DNA from: Bacillus spizizenii TU-B-10 | Lineage (GTDB): Bacteria; Bacillota; Bacilli; Bacillales; Bacillaceae | Direction of reading: 5' to 3' | Assembly (NCBI RefSeq): GCF_000227465.1 | Contig: NC_016047.1 | Span: forward strand, 511,001-575,000 | Length of the DNA stretch: 64,000 bases | Part shown: positions 3,158 through 15,500 of the stretch, piece by piece | Layout: each line of letters begins with the position of its first letter | Position numbering within the stretch: the stretch's first letter is position 1 | The notes under the pieces: generated by a model | The model's database searches: none | Told to the model about the DNA's origin: nothing | What the model saw: only the letters and a program-made list of their open reading frames with translations | Position numbers and translations under genes: made by a program

Positions 3158-6100
3158 ATGAGTCAATTTAGCAAGGATCAGGTTCAAGATATGTATTACC
3201 TATCGCCGATGCAGGAAGGGATGCTGTTTCATACCATCCTGAATCCCGGCCAGAGCTTTTACCTTGAACAAATCACGATGAAAGTAAAAGGCAGCTTGAA
3301 TATCAAATGTCTTGAAGAAGGCATGAATGTGATCATGGACCGGTACGATGTATTTCGTACCGTGTTCATTCACGAAAAAGTAAAAAGACCTGTCCAAGTC
3401 GTATTGAAAAAACGGCAGTTTCATATAGAAGAAATCGATTTGACACACTTAACGGACAGCGAGCAAACAGCCAAAATCAATAAATACAAAGAACAGGATA
3501 AGATCAAGGGTTTTGATTTGACGCGGGATATTCCCATGCGGGCAGCCATTTTCAAAAAAGCTGAAGAAAGCTTTGAATGGGTGTGGAGCTACCACCACAT
3601 TATTTTGGACGGCTGGTGCTTCGGCATCGTCGTGCAGGATCTGTTCAAGGTATACAATGCCCTGCGTGAACAAAAGCCGTACAGTTTGCCGCCTGTCAAA
3701 CCGTATAAAGACTATATCAAGTGGCTTGAAAAGCAGGATAAACAAGCATCACTGCGTTACTGGCGAGAGTACTTAGAGGATTTTGAAGGACAGACGACGT
3801 TCGCGGAGCAAAGAAAGAAACAAACAGACGGCTACGAGCCGAAAGAACTGCTCTTCTCACTGCCGGAGGCGGAAACAAAGGCCTTTACCGAGCTTGCTAA
3901 ATCGCAGCATACCACTTTGAGTACAGCACTTCAGGCAGTCTGGAGCGTATTGATCAGCCGTTATCAGCAGTCTGATGATTTGACCTTCGGCACAGTCGTT
4001 TCTGGGCGTCCCGCGGAAATCAAAGGTGTTGAACATATGGTCGGGCTGTTTATCAACGTTGTCCCAAGACGTGTGAAACTGTCTGAGGATATCACATTTA
4101 ACGGTTTGCTCAAGCAGCTGCAGGAGCAATCGCTTCAGTCTGAGCCGCATCAATATGTGCCGCTCTATGACATCCAAACACAGGCCGATCAGCCAAAACT
4201 GATTGACCATATCATTGTCTTTGAAAATTATCCGCTACAGGATGCAAAAAATGAAGAAAACAGTGAAAACGGCTTTGATATGGAGGATGTACATGTTTTT
4301 GAGAAGTCGAATTATGATCTTAACCTGATGGCTTCCCCGGGGGATGAGATGCTGATTAAGCTAGCCTATAACGAGAATGTGTTTGATGAGGCGTTTATCC
4401 TGCGCCTGAAATCTCAGCTTCTCACATCGATTCAGCAGCTTATCGAAAAGCCGGATCAGCCTGTCAGCACGATCAATCTCGTTGACGACAAGGAGAGAGC
4501 GTTTCTGCTTACTGGCTTAAACCCGCCGGCTCAAACTCATGAGGCAAAGCCTCTGACGGAGTGGTTCAAGGAAGCGGTGAACGTCAATCCGGATGCACCG
4601 GCGCTTGCGTATTCCGGCCAGACGCTTTCCTATCGCGAATTAGATGAGGAAGCAAACCGCCTTGCACGCCGATTGCAAAAGCAAGGCGTGGGCAAAGGCT
4701 CCGTTGTAGCGTTGTACACGAAGCGTTCACTTGAACTGGTGATCGGCATTCTCGGCGTATTAAAGGCAGGAGCGGCTTATCTGCCGGTTGATCCAAAGCT
4801 GCCTGAGGACCGAATTTCATATATGCTGACTGACAGTGCGGCAGCCTGTCTGCTGACACATCAGGAGATGAAAGAAAAAGCGGCTCAGCTGCCGTATACA
4901 GGAACAACGCTCTTCATCGATGATCAAACACGATTTGCAGAACAGGAAAGCGACCCAGCAATCGCGATTGAACCCGATGATCCGGCATATATCATGTACA
5001 CGTCCGGCACAACCGGAGAGCCGAAGGGCAATATCACCACTCATGCCAATATTCAAGGATTGGTCAAGCACGTAGACTACATGGCATTTTCTGAAAAAGA
5101 TACGTTCTTATCTGTTTCGAATTATGCCTTTGACGCGTTTACCTTTGATTTCTACGCTTCAATATTAAATGCGGCAAGGCTCATTATCGCAGATGAACAT
5201 ACGCTGCTTGATACAGAACGGCTCACAGATTTGATCCAGCAGGAGAATGTCAATGTCATGTTTGCGACAACTGCTCTATTTAATCTTCTCATAGATGCGG
5301 GAGAGGATTGGATGAGAGGGCTTCGCTGCGTGTTATTTGGCGGAGAGCGTGCGTCTGTGCCTCACGTCAGAAAAGCGCTGCGAATCATGGGGCCGGGCAA
5401 GCTGATTAACTGCTACGGGCCGACTGAGGGAACGGTGTTTGCGACCGCTCACATCGTGCATGATATACCGGATTCCATCTCCTCATTGCCGATCGGAAAG
5501 CCGATCAGCAATGCCAGTGTTTATATTCTCAACGAGCAAAACCAGCTCCAGCCATTCGGGGCGGTCGGTGAACTGTGCATCAGCGGAATGGGCGTATCTA
5601 AAGGGTATGTAAACCGTCATGACCTGACGAAGCAAAAGTTTATCACGAACCCTTTCAAACCGGGAGAAATGCTTTACCGCACAGGGGACTTAGCACGCTG
5701 GCTGCCGGACGGAACGATTGAATATGCTGGCCGGATTGACGACCAGGTCAAAATACGCGGACACCGGATTGAGCTTGAAGAAATCGAAAAGCAGCTGCAG
5801 GAATATCCAGGTGTGAAAGATGCGGTCGTGGTGGCAGATCGCCATGAGTCTGGCGATGCATCAATCAACGCCTACCTCGTGAGCCGGACGCAGCTTTCAG
5901 CTGAAGGTGTAAAGGCGCACCTGAAAAAACAGCTTCCTGCTTACATGGTGCCGCAAACTTTTACTTTCTTGGACGAGCTTCCTTTAACGACAAACGGGAA
6001 GGTCAATAAACGTCTGCTGCCAAAACCGGATCAGGATCAGCTGGCGGAAGAATGGATCGGGCCACGAGATGAGACGGAAGAAACGATCGCACAAATCTGG

Positions 6101-10754: not shown

Positions 10755-12089
10755 ATGGAGAAATATATGAGTCTTTTAACGAGGATAGAGGAGATGATGC
10801 AAAGCAGCGCCTATCAAGAAGGAGACAGGCTCCCGTCCATCCGTCAGCTGTCCGCCCGCTGCCAAGTCAGCAAAAGCACAGTGATCCGCGCGCTGCAGGA
10901 GCTGGAAAAGCGCCACCTCATCTACTCGGTTCCGAAAAGCGGCTATTATATTGTGAAAAAGACGGGAAAATCAAAAAGCGGGCAGCCGGGCCCCATCGAC
11001 TTTGCCACTTCTGCACCGGACCCCGAGGTGTTTCCATATCTTGATTTTCAGCACTGCATCAACAAAGCGATTGATACATACAAAAATGATTTGTTTATTT
11101 ATGGAACGCCAAAGGGGCTTCCATCACTCATCCGCGTACTCCGAAAGCTGCTGGCCAATCAGCAGGTATTTGCGGATGAACGGCATATTTTCATCACATC
11201 AGGTGTTCAGCAGGCGTTGTCCCTGCTTTGTGCAATGCCGTTTCCAAATGGGAAAGAGAAGATCGCCATTGAACAGCCGGGCTATCATTTGATGATTGAA
11301 CAGCTTGAGACGCTTGGGATTCCTGCTATCGGAGTGAGAAGAACAGAAGAGGGGCTAGATATAGCCGAGGTCGAGCGGCTGTTTCAGACAGAATCGATCA
11401 AATTTTTTTATACGATGCCGCGCTTCCATAACCCGCTTGGCTGCTCTTTGTCAGAGCGAGATAAACAAGAGCTTGTGAGACTGGCAGAAATGTATGATGT
11501 CTATCTCGTTGAGGATGATTATCTCGGTGATTTGGAGGAAAATAAAAAGGCAGATCCGCTGTACGCATATGATCTGTCCTCGCATGTCATTTATTTGAAA
11601 AGCTTCTCGAAAATGATGTTCCCCGGCCTTCGCGTGGGGGCCGCTGTTTTGCCGGATGCGCTGGCTGACACGTTTCACACGTACAAAAAGCTGAACGACA
11701 TCGACTGCTCGATGATTTCTCAAGCAGCGTTGGAGATTTATCTGAAAAGCGGCATGTACGGCAGGCATAAGGAGAAGATCCGCGCTTCCTATAAGGAACG
11801 GTCACTGAGGCTTCATCAAGCCATCCAAACACATAGGCAGCTTGGAAGCGGCCGCTTTACGTTCTCCAGCGGGCAGGCACCCTGCATGCACACCCATCTG
11901 GTGCTTCCTCGGGATCTGCCAGCCTCAAGGGTGATTCAAAGGCTGAAAAAACAAGGGGTTCTCCTTGAGGCGATAGACCGTCATTATTTATCAGATTATC
12001 CGAAAGAAAATCTATTAAAAATCAGTATTTCCAATGTGAAAACGGAAGATATTGAGCATGGCGTCAAGCTGCTGATGAGCCACTTATAA
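10755..12089 (+). CDS. ycxD: MocR-type (GntR plus aminotransferase) transcriptional regulator YcxD
   Basis: A 444-residue fusion of an N-terminal GntR winged helix (about 1-70; RLPSIRQLSARCQVSKSTVI) and a fold-type I aminotransferase-like domain. The lysine in YLKSFSKMMFPG would hold pyridoxal phosphate. Family members sense PLP-linked ligands and regulate a neighbouring gene. The ATG at 10755 follows GGGGGAG. The gene is divergent from ycxC, with which it shares overlapping promoters. Its 3' end overlaps the converging sfp gene by six bases with no terminator between them. Confidence 0.88.
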   Translation: MEKYMSLLTRIEEMMQSSAYQEGDRLPSIRQLSARCQVSKSTVIRALQELEKRHLIYSVPKSGYYIVKKTGKSKSGQPGPIDFATSAPDPEVFPYLDFQHCINKAIDTYKNDLFIYGTPKGLPSLIRVLRKLLANQQVFADERHIFITSGVQQALSLLCAMPFPNGKEKIAIEQPGYHLMIEQLETLGIPAIGVRRTEEGLDIAEVERLFQTESIKFFYTMPRFHNPLGCSLSERDKQELVRLAEMYDVYLVEDDYLGDLEENKKADPLYAYDLSSHVIYLKSFSKMMFPGLRVGAAVLPDALADTFHTYKKLNDIDCSMISQAALEIYLKSGMYGRHKEKIRASYKERSLRLHQAIQTHRQLGSGRFTFSSGQAPCMHTHLVLPRDLPASRVIQRLKKQGVLLEAIDRHYLSDYPKENLLKISISNVKTEDIEHGVKLLMSHL

Positions 12090-12758
12090 AAGCGCTTCGT
12101 ACGAGACCATTGTGATATCCTCGGGGAAATCGTGGTGCGCGGCGCACACAGCCATTTTGTAGGCGGGATCCACCTCATAGGTTTTGATATAGCACGGTGT
12201 ATGGCTGTCCGGAAGCTCAATGGATACTTGCCCGTCCTGGTGCAGGCGCACTGAAAAGGAATCAAGCGGAAGCGATAAGCCTTTGCCTTCCTGTTTGATA
12301 AAGCTTTCTTTCATTGACCATAGATGATAAAAATAGTCTGTCTGCTCGTCCTTATTTTTTGCCAAAAGGTCGCTGTACTCTGTTTTTGAAAAGAAGCGTT
12401 TGGCGATCTCAAGGCTGATCGGTTTCATTTTTTCAATATCGATGCCAATCGGCTGTGAATCAAACGCACAAACGACCCAGCGGCCAGAGTGAGAAATGTT
12501 GAAATGGGCGTTAGGAAGATCAGGGATGCAGGGCTTCCCGTATTCCTGCGCGCCGAAGCGGATGTCGGCTTTGTCCAGCTGATACTGTCCGCTGATGACT
12601 GAGCGAACGAGCACATCTCCCAGCAGGGTGCGGTGAGCATCTTCTTTATGATAAAATCTCCGGCATTTCTCCCGTTTTTCAGGCGATATGAAAGACATTA
12701 ACCGTTCAGTCTCTTCCTGTGAAAGCGGGCGGTCCATATACATTCCGTAAATCTTCAT
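12084..12758 (-). CDS. sfp: 4'-phosphopantetheinyl transferase Sfp, full length
   Basis: A 224-residue Sfp-type transferase. It moves 4'-phosphopantetheine from coenzyme A to carrier-domain serines of SrfA and other non-ribosomal peptide or polyketide synthases. The Mg-binding residues are present: Asp107 and Glu109 in IGIDIEKM, and Glu151 with Lys155 in WSMKESFIK. The ATG follows GGAGGATCTAGA. Strain 168 is known to carry a frameshifted, shortened sfp; here the frame is unbroken to the family length, so holo-synthetase formation and surfactin production are expected. yczE follows upstream of it on the same strand. Confidence 0.97.
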   Translation of the reverse strand: MKIYGMYMDRPLSQEETERLMSFISPEKREKCRRFYHKEDAHRTLLGDVLVRSVISGQYQLDKADIRFGAQEYGKPCIPDLPNAHFNISHSGRWVVCAFDSQPIGIDIEKMKPISLEIAKRFFSKTEYSDLLAKNKDEQTDYFYHLWSMKESFIKQEGKGLSLPLDSFSVRLHQDGQVSIELPDSHTPCYIKTYEVDPAYKMAVCAAHHDFPEDITMVSYEALL

Positions 12759-12866: not shown

Positions 12867-13510
12867 TGTATAGGCGGAGATGCTTTCACAGCGGCTGTCC
12901 GCCTTGCCACAGCATAATTCAGCAGCTGGATTGACTGGGGCAATGAAAAGCGCAAAATGAGTCCGGTGAGGATGGCGGTCAAAATAGTGCCAAAACCGAT
13001 CGGGCCGCCCATGCCCCATGCCGCAAATAAAATTGTTATTTCCATGCCGTTCCGCACCCATTGCACATTCCAGCCGGTTTTTTCTGTAATCAGCATCATC
13101 AGTGAATCACGCGGCCCCGCGCCAAGGCCTGCTGATACATAAACACCGACGCCGTAGCCGATCAGGAGCACACCGAGAGAGAAGACGATGACGGAGCCCG
13201 TGTAGGTCGAGGGGGCAGGCAGAATGAAATTGAAAAAATCTATAAATATACCAATGAGCACCATATTCAGGATCGCCCCAATTTTTGGCCAAGCCCTCGT
13301 AAACAATGACGTTAATCCGACGATGAGCGCTCCAATAATGATGGACCACTGGCCGACGGTAAGCCCGAAGTGCTGAAACAGGCTGTAATGAAATGCATCC
13401 CACGGACTAATGCCGAGTGCTTTTCCTTCTATCGTCAGGGATACACCAAAAGCCAAAATGATCAAACCGGCAAAATAAAATGTCCAGCGCAGAACAAGTT
13501 CTTGCTTCAC
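12863..13510 (-). CDS. yczE: YczE family integral membrane protein
   Basis: A 215-residue protein with about five membrane segments, of the YczE/YitT-like family (DUF6198). Its biochemical role is unknown. In B. amyloliquefaciens, yczE next to sfp is reported as needed for polyketide production, which gives a functional reason for this pairing. The ATG at 13510 follows an AAGGGACC site. In strain 168, as I recall, tcyC comes next; here about 1 kb of extra DNA with a broken rap/phr module intervenes. Confidence 0.88.
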   Translation of the reverse strand: MKQELVLRWTFYFAGLIILAFGVSLTIEGKALGISPWDAFHYSLFQHFGLTVGQWSIIIGALIVGLTSLFTRAWPKIGAILNMVLIGIFIDFFNFILPAPSTYTGSVIVFSLGVLLIGYGVGVYVSAGLGAGPRDSLMMLITEKTGWNVQWVRNGMEITILFAAWGMGGPIGFGTILTAILTGLILRFSLPQSIQLLNYAVARRTAAVKASPPIH

Positions 13511-13595: not shown

Positions 13596-13631
13596 AAAAA
13601 AACAGGGCGCCTGTGGCAGCCCTGTTTTGGT
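13596..13631 (-). terminator. Terminator downstream of the phr gene
   Basis: ACAGGGC / GCCCTGT stem immediately beyond the phr stop, followed on the minus strand by a T run. Confidence 0.75.
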
Positions 13632-13754
13632 TTAAATATTTATTGCCTTTTCTGCTACTTGAAATGAGTCTGACTCGTTAGCGTATGATCCTGCATTTAA
13701 TAAACCAGCAAAAAGGAAACCAATCAAAGCGGTGCTGATAATAAGTTCTTTCAT
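13632..13754 (-). CDS. Pre-Phr signalling peptide, apparently intact, next to a broken rap
   Basis: A 40-residue ORF beginning MKELIISTALIGFLF: a short basic start, a hydrophobic signal segment to about residue 25, then a hydrophilic tail ending QVAEKAINI. This is the layout of Phr precursors. The tail lines up with the PhrG (VAEKMIG) and PhrK (VAERPVG) ends, where the mature peptide starts after the alanine, so the predicted exported peptide is EKAINI. The ATG overlaps the ancestral rap stop (TAATG), as in rap-phr operons, with a GGAG site eight bases ahead. The upstream rap is frameshifted, so the peptide would lack its own partner. Confidence 0.7.
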   Translation of the reverse strand: MKELIISTALIGFLFAGLLNAGSYANESDSFQVAEKAINI

Positions 13755-14641
13755 TATAGCGACTCCGTAACTTTTAGTATTTGAGTTTGGGCATTTATAG
13801 TCCTCTTTAAGAAATTCCTTCCTTCGGTAAATTTCCTGTTTCAAAATGAAAGTCACCTATTTTTTCTGTTAATTCTGCATATTCAGACCATAGACGTTTC
13901 TTTTCCAAATATTTAAGGCTGCGCTCCACTTCTTTCTCATTATACTCTTCATAAATTGAATAAATGATTGTTAATTTTGCTTTATATTCTTCTTCATTAC
14001 AATGCAAGGCTAGTTTTAATGCTTTTTCATAAAATAAATGTGCTTCATCCAGTTTAGAAGATTGATAAAGCACATTTGCCATCATATATAATGTCCTAAT
14101 ACTATTAGCTGTGTTCATGTGATCTTTCATTTCTAATGCTCTTCTGAAAAAATACTCAGCATCTGTAAGATTTCCACCTCTTGTTGATACCAGTCCTAAG
14201 TTATGGTGGATTACCCCGATAATCCTATTTGCTTGTTTTCCTTTCAAATGTTCAGCCTTGTGTAAAGCTTCTCGATAATAATGGATTGCCTCTACATATT
14301 CTTTTTGATCAAATTCATACATTCCACGGAAAAATAATGAATAATATTTAAGAAGACCAGTAAGCCTTTTTTGGTGGTTTTCAATTTTCTCAAGCAGTTC
14401 TGAGATGCTTGGTCGCTCATATTTTTTCTCTGGCGGTTCTAAGGAGTCTAACATCAATTGGTGACCGAAAACACATAAGAGAATAATAGAGAAGTAAATC
14501 TTGATCCTCTTCCATTGCCTTTATTTCTAGCTCAACCTCTGCCTTTAAAACTTCGGCATCAGGTACACTAAATTGACGAATCATCTTATACCATTCGTTA
14601 ATTTTAACGCCTACGTGTGATGATGGTACTGCTGACCCCAT
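13754..14641 (-). pseudogene. Degenerate Rap (response regulator aspartate phosphatase) gene with at least two frameshifts
   Basis: Two overlapping frames together spell a Rap protein. The first (14641 down to 14417) begins [20 protein letters not shown], nearly identical to RapC, then leaves the Rap frame after LYYSLMCFR. The second (to 13807) resumes as [11 protein letters not shown] and carries the TPR repeats. RapC reads EFRHQLMLDYLEPL at this junction, so one extra base at about 14464 explains the break. The second frame stops early at 13807; the typical C-terminus NAQTQILKVTESL follows in another frame and ends at 13754. No Shine-Dalgarno precedes the ATG. The segment looks more AT-rich than its neighbours. 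Rap proteins dephosphorylate Spo0F or block ComA; this copy should be non-functional. Confidence 0.85.
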
Positions 14642-14664
14642 ATCATTTGCAATATGATGCTTGT

Positions 14665-14713: not shown

Positions 14714-14753
14714 GAAAAAACCCAAAACGGCATTCGTTTTGGGTTTTTTTAAG
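14714..14753. terminator. Terminator of the tcyABC operon
   Basis: AAACCCAAAACG / CGTTTTGGGTTT stem with a T run on each strand, just beyond the tcyC stop. Confidence 0.85.
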
Positions 14754-14756
14754 ATT

Positions 14757-15500
14757 TTACAGCGGGTTCAAAATCCGGTTCAAGAACCGCTGCGTCCGTT
14801 CTTCCTTTGGTGCGGAGAAAATTTGCTCCGGCGGTCCCTGTTCCACGATGACGCCGCCGTCGATGAAGATGACTTCATCCGCCACATCCTGGGCGAATTT
14901 GATTTCGTGAGTTACGACGACCATGGTCCAGCCTTCGTTGGCCAAATCCTTGATAACCTTCAGCACCTCTCCGACAAGCTCGGGATCAAGCGCTGAGGTC
15001 GGTTCGTCAAACAGCATGAGCTCAGGCTGAATCGCCAATGCACGGGCGATGCCGACGCGCTGCTGCTGGCCGCCGGAGAGCTGGAACGGATATAAATCCA
15101 TTTTGTCCTTCAATCCGACTTTTTCAAGAAGCTGAATCGCTTCTTTTCTGACTTCCTCTTTGTTCCGTTTTTGCACCTGAACAGGACCCTCCATCACGTT
15201 TTCAAGGGCTGTGCGGTGCGGGAACAGGTGATACGCCTGGAATACCATTCCGGATTTCCGGCGCAGCTTTAGGATATCTGCCTGTTTCACTTTTTTGGAG
15301 AAATCGATGGAGAAATCATCAAATGCAAGCTCCCCGCGATTCGGAATCTCCAGCGCGTTCAGGCAGCGGAGCAGCGTCGTTTTCCCTGAACCTGAAGGCC
15401 CAAGTATGGCGATGACTTTCCCTTTTTCAATCTTCATATCTATCTTTTTTAAAATTTCATTTTCACCGAATGATTTGTTTAATCCTTTAACGGTAAGCAT
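14757..15500 (-). CDS. tcyC: Cystine ABC transporter ATP-binding protein
   Basis: A 247-residue ABC ATPase of the polar amino acid group. Walker A is GPSGSGKTT, the signature is LSGGQQQR and Walker B is [12 protein letters not shown]. It powers L-cystine uptake with TcyA (binding protein) and TcyB (permease). The frame runs further upstream to 15608, but [11 protein letters not shown] at 15500 matches family starts and has an AGGAGG site; the longer form would overlap tcyB by about 90 bases. It is third and last in the operon and ends in a strong terminator. Confidence 0.94.

Follow-up and report, generated by a model that had tools for sequence, protein, structure and literature searches.

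A decayed rap gene next to a still-open phr between tcyC and yczE in Bacillus spizizenii TU-B-10

Alongside the surfactin genes and the sfp locus of Bacillus spizizenii TU-B-10 lies an interval, bracketed by two minus-strand genes, tcyC (ending at 14757) and yczE (starting at 13510), in which the remains of a rap gene are joined to a small phr, and the question arises as to what this insert is, how it came to lie here and whether any part of it still works. The window that was analysed (64,000 nucleotides, G000:C1:511001-575000; positions below are counted within it) forms part of a single 4,207,222-base contig. We read the locus, with a probability of roughly 0.85, as a rap pseudogene and a still-open phr derived from an AT-rich rap-phr pair that was inserted in an ancestor of the B. 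subtilis subclade. The rap relic has a GC content of 33.9%, as against about 50% for yczE and tcyC; Even-Tov et al. (PMC5199041) recognise mobile raps by two features, of which low GC is one. The sfp gene (12084-12758 of the window) reads through, with 224 amino acids. A scan for terminator-like sites found two (shuffle mean 1.4), and in both B. tequilensis and Bacillus sp. SKDU12, which carry relics of this insert too, a hairpin similar to the one after tcyC adjoins the relic:

14715..14749, minus strand: terminator-like hairpin directly after tcyC (terminator-site scan)
13602..13614, minus strand: terminator-like hairpin after phr (terminator-site scan)

The receptor half of the pair survives in three pieces, each of them in a different reading frame:

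14417/14418..14641, minus strand: N-terminal piece of the rap relic, a 3-helix bundle of RapH_N type (ORF list, tblastn, Pfam)
13807..14457, minus strand: linker and TPR piece of the rap relic, in another frame (ORF list, tblastn, Pfam)
13754..13825, minus strand: C-terminal tail of the rap relic, in yet another frame (tblastn, alignment with relatives)

The earlier note on this DNA had proposed a decayed rap in two overlapping minus-strand frames, and both are present: a frame of 74 amino acids, which matches the RapH_N domain expected of a Rap protein (Pfam PF18801, E 7.2e-24), and an overlapping one of 216 amino acids, in which (at 13810-14457) the TPR repeats expected of such a protein are recognised (TPR_2, 1.8e-14; TPR_12, 5.6e-14), though it is 81 codons short. 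With the RapC of the window as tblastn query, the TPR piece (3e-28) and the N-terminal piece (2e-23) were recovered in different frames. The C-terminus had likewise been placed in a further frame with its stop overlapping the start of phr, and this holds: the tail comprises the last ~23 rap codons (ending in ...NAQTQILKVTESL), and its TAA shares one base with the start codon of phr at 13754 (TAATG), the adjacency of a Rap-Phr cassette and one shared by all five related pairs outside the tcyC-yczE interval. On the other hand, the N-terminal segment is not nearly identical to RapC, as had been supposed; an identity of 73% over 55 residues rules out so close a kinship, and the piece is closer to L008, another Rap of the genome (83% over 59 residues), and, at 83% as well, to the homologues from B. 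halotolerans and B. atrophaeus. Elsewhere in the genome, two identical 4,122-base stretches some 60 kb apart (L005 and L006, G000:C1:215874-219995 and 276351-280472; both outside the window) each carry a 377-codon rap without an evident phr, the N-termini of which are 80% like that of the relic. Furthermore, short rap matches with internal stops (L015, L017 and L018; G000:C1:3277967-3278218 and 2163676-2164232) are probably two more rap relics in the same genome.

What separates the gene from a working receptor is a series of lesions, two of which can be placed on the sequence as follows:

14643..14644, minus strand: junction at which 36-53 bases of relatives are absent (alignment with 7 other rap loci)
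14266..14280, minus strand: YYREA motif, site of the missing 81 codons (alignment with relatives)

Just before the rap start, 36-53 bases are missing in comparison to all seven aligned rap loci (38-39 in comparison to five of the seven), and the lost stretch includes the ribosome site (GAGGGAGG- or AAGGAGG-type in most of the seven) and probably held part of the promoter as well; the earlier note had rightly remarked on the lack of a ribosome site and had left this 5' loss unexplained. The frame changes near 14464, as the note had also claimed (tblastn with RapC, alignment), after the 3-helix bundle, and a second time before the C-terminal tail. Between two TPR motifs, moreover, 81 codons are lost in frame (81 gaps in 290 positions in comparison to all four open relatives), a loss which that note had not described. 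In these four relatives two YYR[KE]A motifs stand exactly 81 codons apart, and in a comparison with the B. halotolerans gene the window follows the first copy on the upstream side (50/60 bases) and the second on the downstream side (50/75). This agreement between deletion length and inter-motif distance, with the matches switching from one copy to the other, is the pattern that recombination between the motifs would leave. A working Rap would be encoded in one uninterrupted frame of about 370-390 codons, preceded by a ribosome site; nothing of the kind is found here, and the gene is a pseudogene. We suggest that a deletion 5' of rap removed its ribosome site, that a frame change followed the 3-helix bundle segment, that the 81 codons were lost in frame (probably by recombination between the similar DNA of the two TPR motifs) and that a second frame change arose ahead of the tail, so that a working receptor could no longer be produced.

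The signal half, by contrast with the receptor, is still open (a point which the earlier note had not made), and a candidate promoter lies before it:

13632..13754, minus strand: phr, open, with a signal-peptide-like start and the C-terminus AEKAINI (ORF list, Phr search, alignment)
13812..13839, minus strand: match to a sigma-H-like promoter, some 85 bases ahead of phr (-35/-10 consensus matched exactly, spacer 10)

The encoded Phr has 40 amino acids and a hydrophobic start, and scores 17.6 bits against the NCBIfam PhrK family (cut-off 35). Seven of the eight Phrs of its family end in AEKAINI, and the broken copy of SKDU12 in AEKAINM. The mature peptide of PhrG is EKMIG, and by analogy that of the present Phr would be a secreted hexapeptide, EKAINI. 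A precursor ending in VAEKMIG is present in the genome of the window. If this predicted cut site is right, the peptide would carry lysine in second position, in line with the rule for Phr peptides (arginine, or lysine, second) set out in PMC5199041. No cognate Rap was found in the genome of the window; the Phr search of this genome returned the tcyC-yczE place and no second one, and no phr candidate listed beside its other raps (a list that missed some phr genes) ends in EKAINI. As to expression, the spacer of the sigma-H-like match is of 10 bases and the usual sigma-H spacer of 11-12. Exact matches to the consensus (RNAGGAWWW + RNNGAATWW, from PMC8510167) occur twice in the 64 kb, both strands included, and of 300 pieces of 200 bases drawn at random from the window one scores 22 or more (null median 17). 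The same site scores 22 in B. tequilensis, the score at that position is 21 in G028, and the SKDU12 relic reaches 16. We propose that phr may be transcribed from this promoter of its own.

As the origin of the pair bears on its present state, we searched 44 genomes of the genus with the Phr query and obtained eight places in seven genomes at E 1.2e-5 or better, five weaker places (E 0.6-0.98) being set aside as chance. Three of the eight are the tcyC-yczE places of the window, of B. tequilensis (G038) and of SKDU12 (G014, contig 10). In four others an open rap of 376-378 codons accompanies phr, i.e. in B. halotolerans (G009), B. atrophaeus (G003), G028 and a second SKDU12 contig (G014 contig 13, L148; 5,368 bases); by sequence, the solved structure nearest to the B. 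halotolerans Rap is RapH (8.1e-92). The remaining one (G002; L151, ~5812-5869) has an open phr and a rap with TAG at codon 17, the listed frame starting at codon 20, and perhaps represents another receptor loss. AEKAINI-type pairs lie near LXG-domain genes in four of the five loci (L147, L148, L149 and L150; called by domain scan for L147, which is a fragment, L149 and L150, and for L148 from its resemblance to annotated LXG genes), and the one neighbour scanned at L151 is not LXG; the pair may thus travel with these polymorphic toxin modules. Viral contigs scanned with the TPR piece gave six pattern matches and no relative. Matches were found in 13 records of phages and 15 of plasmids, the matches listed all falling within the N-terminal stretch (query 668-1029, 60-90% identity); since none covers 80% of the query, no recent mobile source was found, and with the L148 contig as plasmid query no record covered 80% either.

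The distribution of the insert was followed through the same interval in other species (one genome per species). A YczE-like match was present in 43 of the 44 genomes, the gap was measured at 30 YczE loci, and the 19 at which tcyC adjoins yczE constitute the comparable intervals; ten loci had no TcyC match in the stretch examined, and a match at L063 (24% identity) was set aside. Three of the 19 hold rap-phr relics (the window, B. tequilensis and SKDU12), five a dispersed repeat (G005, B. inaquosorum G011, G035, G036 and G039) and eleven are bare (101-147 bases); these include every outgroup in which the gap could be read (B. halotolerans, B. mojavensis, B. atrophaeus, B. velezensis and B. siamensis). 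The dispersed repeat (e.g. L158:4160-4340 in G035) has a core of about 140 bases and matches in 38 of the 44 genomes, many of them with 10-26; the genome of the window has copies elsewhere, and the match within the window itself is confined to bases 1-46 of the query (the terminator by the repeat). The relics have the same junctions and are each cut differently: B. tequilensis keeps about the last 34 rap codons and an open phr, and SKDU12 about 18 rap codons and a phr with TGA. The module is accordingly not strain-specific, as it had been thought to be. The G035 genome, which we take to be strain 168 (its sfp match stops at residue 161, as expected there), has no rap in the interval and no Phr match, in agreement with what the earlier note had said of that strain. 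In a tree built from five genes that flank the interval (14 taxa, 3,574 columns, with sfp matched only partly in G035) the genome of the window stands beside N13C7 and G035 (support 89; the latter pair 95), whereas B. tequilensis and SKDU12 (64) stand beside G005 (81); other inner nodes reach 70-100, and B. halotolerans and B. mojavensis branch outside with full support. The relics consequently occupy two places on this tree. The simplest and most likely reading is one gain before the radiation and about three complete losses, i.e. the AT-rich pair would have been inserted between tcyC and yczE in an ancestor of the subclade and later lost piecemeal, including on the line to 168. In the choice left by the earlier note (a module gained and then lost, or ancestral and deleted in 168) the evidence leans towards an ancestral gain with later loss, with the amendment that in the window it is the receptor that was lost, while phr remains.

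Other accounts of the locus have to be set against this reading. Two lesions consist of a single frame change each, such as an error of sequencing or assembly in an otherwise working rap might produce, but the losses of 81 codons and of 36-53 bases cannot be single-base miscalls and exclude base-calling error as the explanation; with the genome in a single 4.2 Mb contig, we give error next to no chance. That the module reached the genome of the window and the B. tequilensis/SKDU12 line by separate insertions, or through exchange among species at a later time, would fit its patchy occurrence (its nearest tree relatives, N13C7 and G035, are without it), and support inside the clade is moderate enough (64-95 at inner nodes) to leave room for exchange. 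The junctions, however, are the same and the terminator similar, and identity over the rap tail, phr and yczE to the window (91.6% for B. tequilensis, 88.3% for SKDU12) falls slightly short of the values for the flanking genes (94.6% and 93.6%), as shared descent predicts; we consider both separate insertion and later exchange improbable and retain the single ancestral gain.

The same weighing applies to phr, which may have been retained, with its own sigma-H promoter, after separate receptor losses in at least two Bacillus species, as a selected orphan signal: loss of the receptor would be tolerated or favoured, and secreted EKAINI would act on another, non-cognate Rap of the same cell or on neighbours with the cognate receptor. 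Its being open both in the window and in B. tequilensis speaks for this, as does the B. tequilensis deletion, which removed most of rap but left phr in place together with its GGAGG and the sigma-H-like site; conversely, the SKDU12 copy in tcyC-yczE, where phr has TGA, has lost the sigma-H-like site too (score 16, as above). Neighbours of the required kind would exist, open cognate pairs being carried by G009, G003, G028 and SKDU12. Between the window and B. tequilensis, half of the eight changes in phr are silent (four, with four replacements) and AEKAINI is unchanged, but in a neutral simulation selection was not significant (P 0.13 for four or fewer replacements without a stop; P 0.057 with AEKAINI also kept). 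The rap gene, moreover, exceeds phr in length about ninefold and would by chance alone be expected to break first; phr of the window has a weaker ribosome site (GGAGT in place of GGAGG) and encodes an acidic residue in third position (K to E), and a good sigma-H-like site is absent from four of the five other pairs (scores of only 18-19). We regard a kept signal as improbable and prefer the reading in which phr has outlived rap: as the genome yielded no cognate Rap, phr is most likely without a selected function, and would linger because it is a small target.

In comparison to known systems the locus adds a further case of a mobile rap in decay, one in which the signal half has outlived the receptor. 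With Rap-Phr cassettes (RapH, Rap3T and RapF, by sequence) it shares the RapH_N bundle, the TPR repeats and a phr overlapping the rap stop, and with mobile raps the low GC; unlike the working Rap phosphatases of the B. subtilis group, its receptor lies in three frames and has lost the 5' end and 81 codons. The predicted pheromone would resemble those of PhrG type (EKMIG) in its ...VAEK... context and its lysine in second position, and would differ in having (as the putative EKAINI) six residues and another C-terminus. RapB, RapD and RapJ of strain 168 are orphan raps, and likewise consist of half of a rap-phr pair; whereas in these it is the receptor that stands alone, here the signal is without its receptor. 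PMC5199041 counts three orphan raps in strain 168 and describes the horizontal transfer of rap-phr pairs, and the domain layout of Rap is given in PMC3601957. How selection can favour the acquisition of a further Rap-Phr pair is explained in PMC4771773, the consulted passages of which contain nothing on loss of the receptor with the signal kept. In the open-licence literature that was searched, neither this relic nor any orphan phr was found described; EKAINI gave no Rap-Phr paper by title among the matches listed, and the words 'orphan' and 'pseudogene' are absent from the main text of PMC8044106 and PMC10075063.

The contents of the gap beside sfp, in the much-studied surfactin locus, are now explained. 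Three species hold three different truncations of one insert, two of them with an open phr, from which stages of loss can be read, and the locus offers a small and testable case of a signal gene without its receptor that is either kept or merely lingering.
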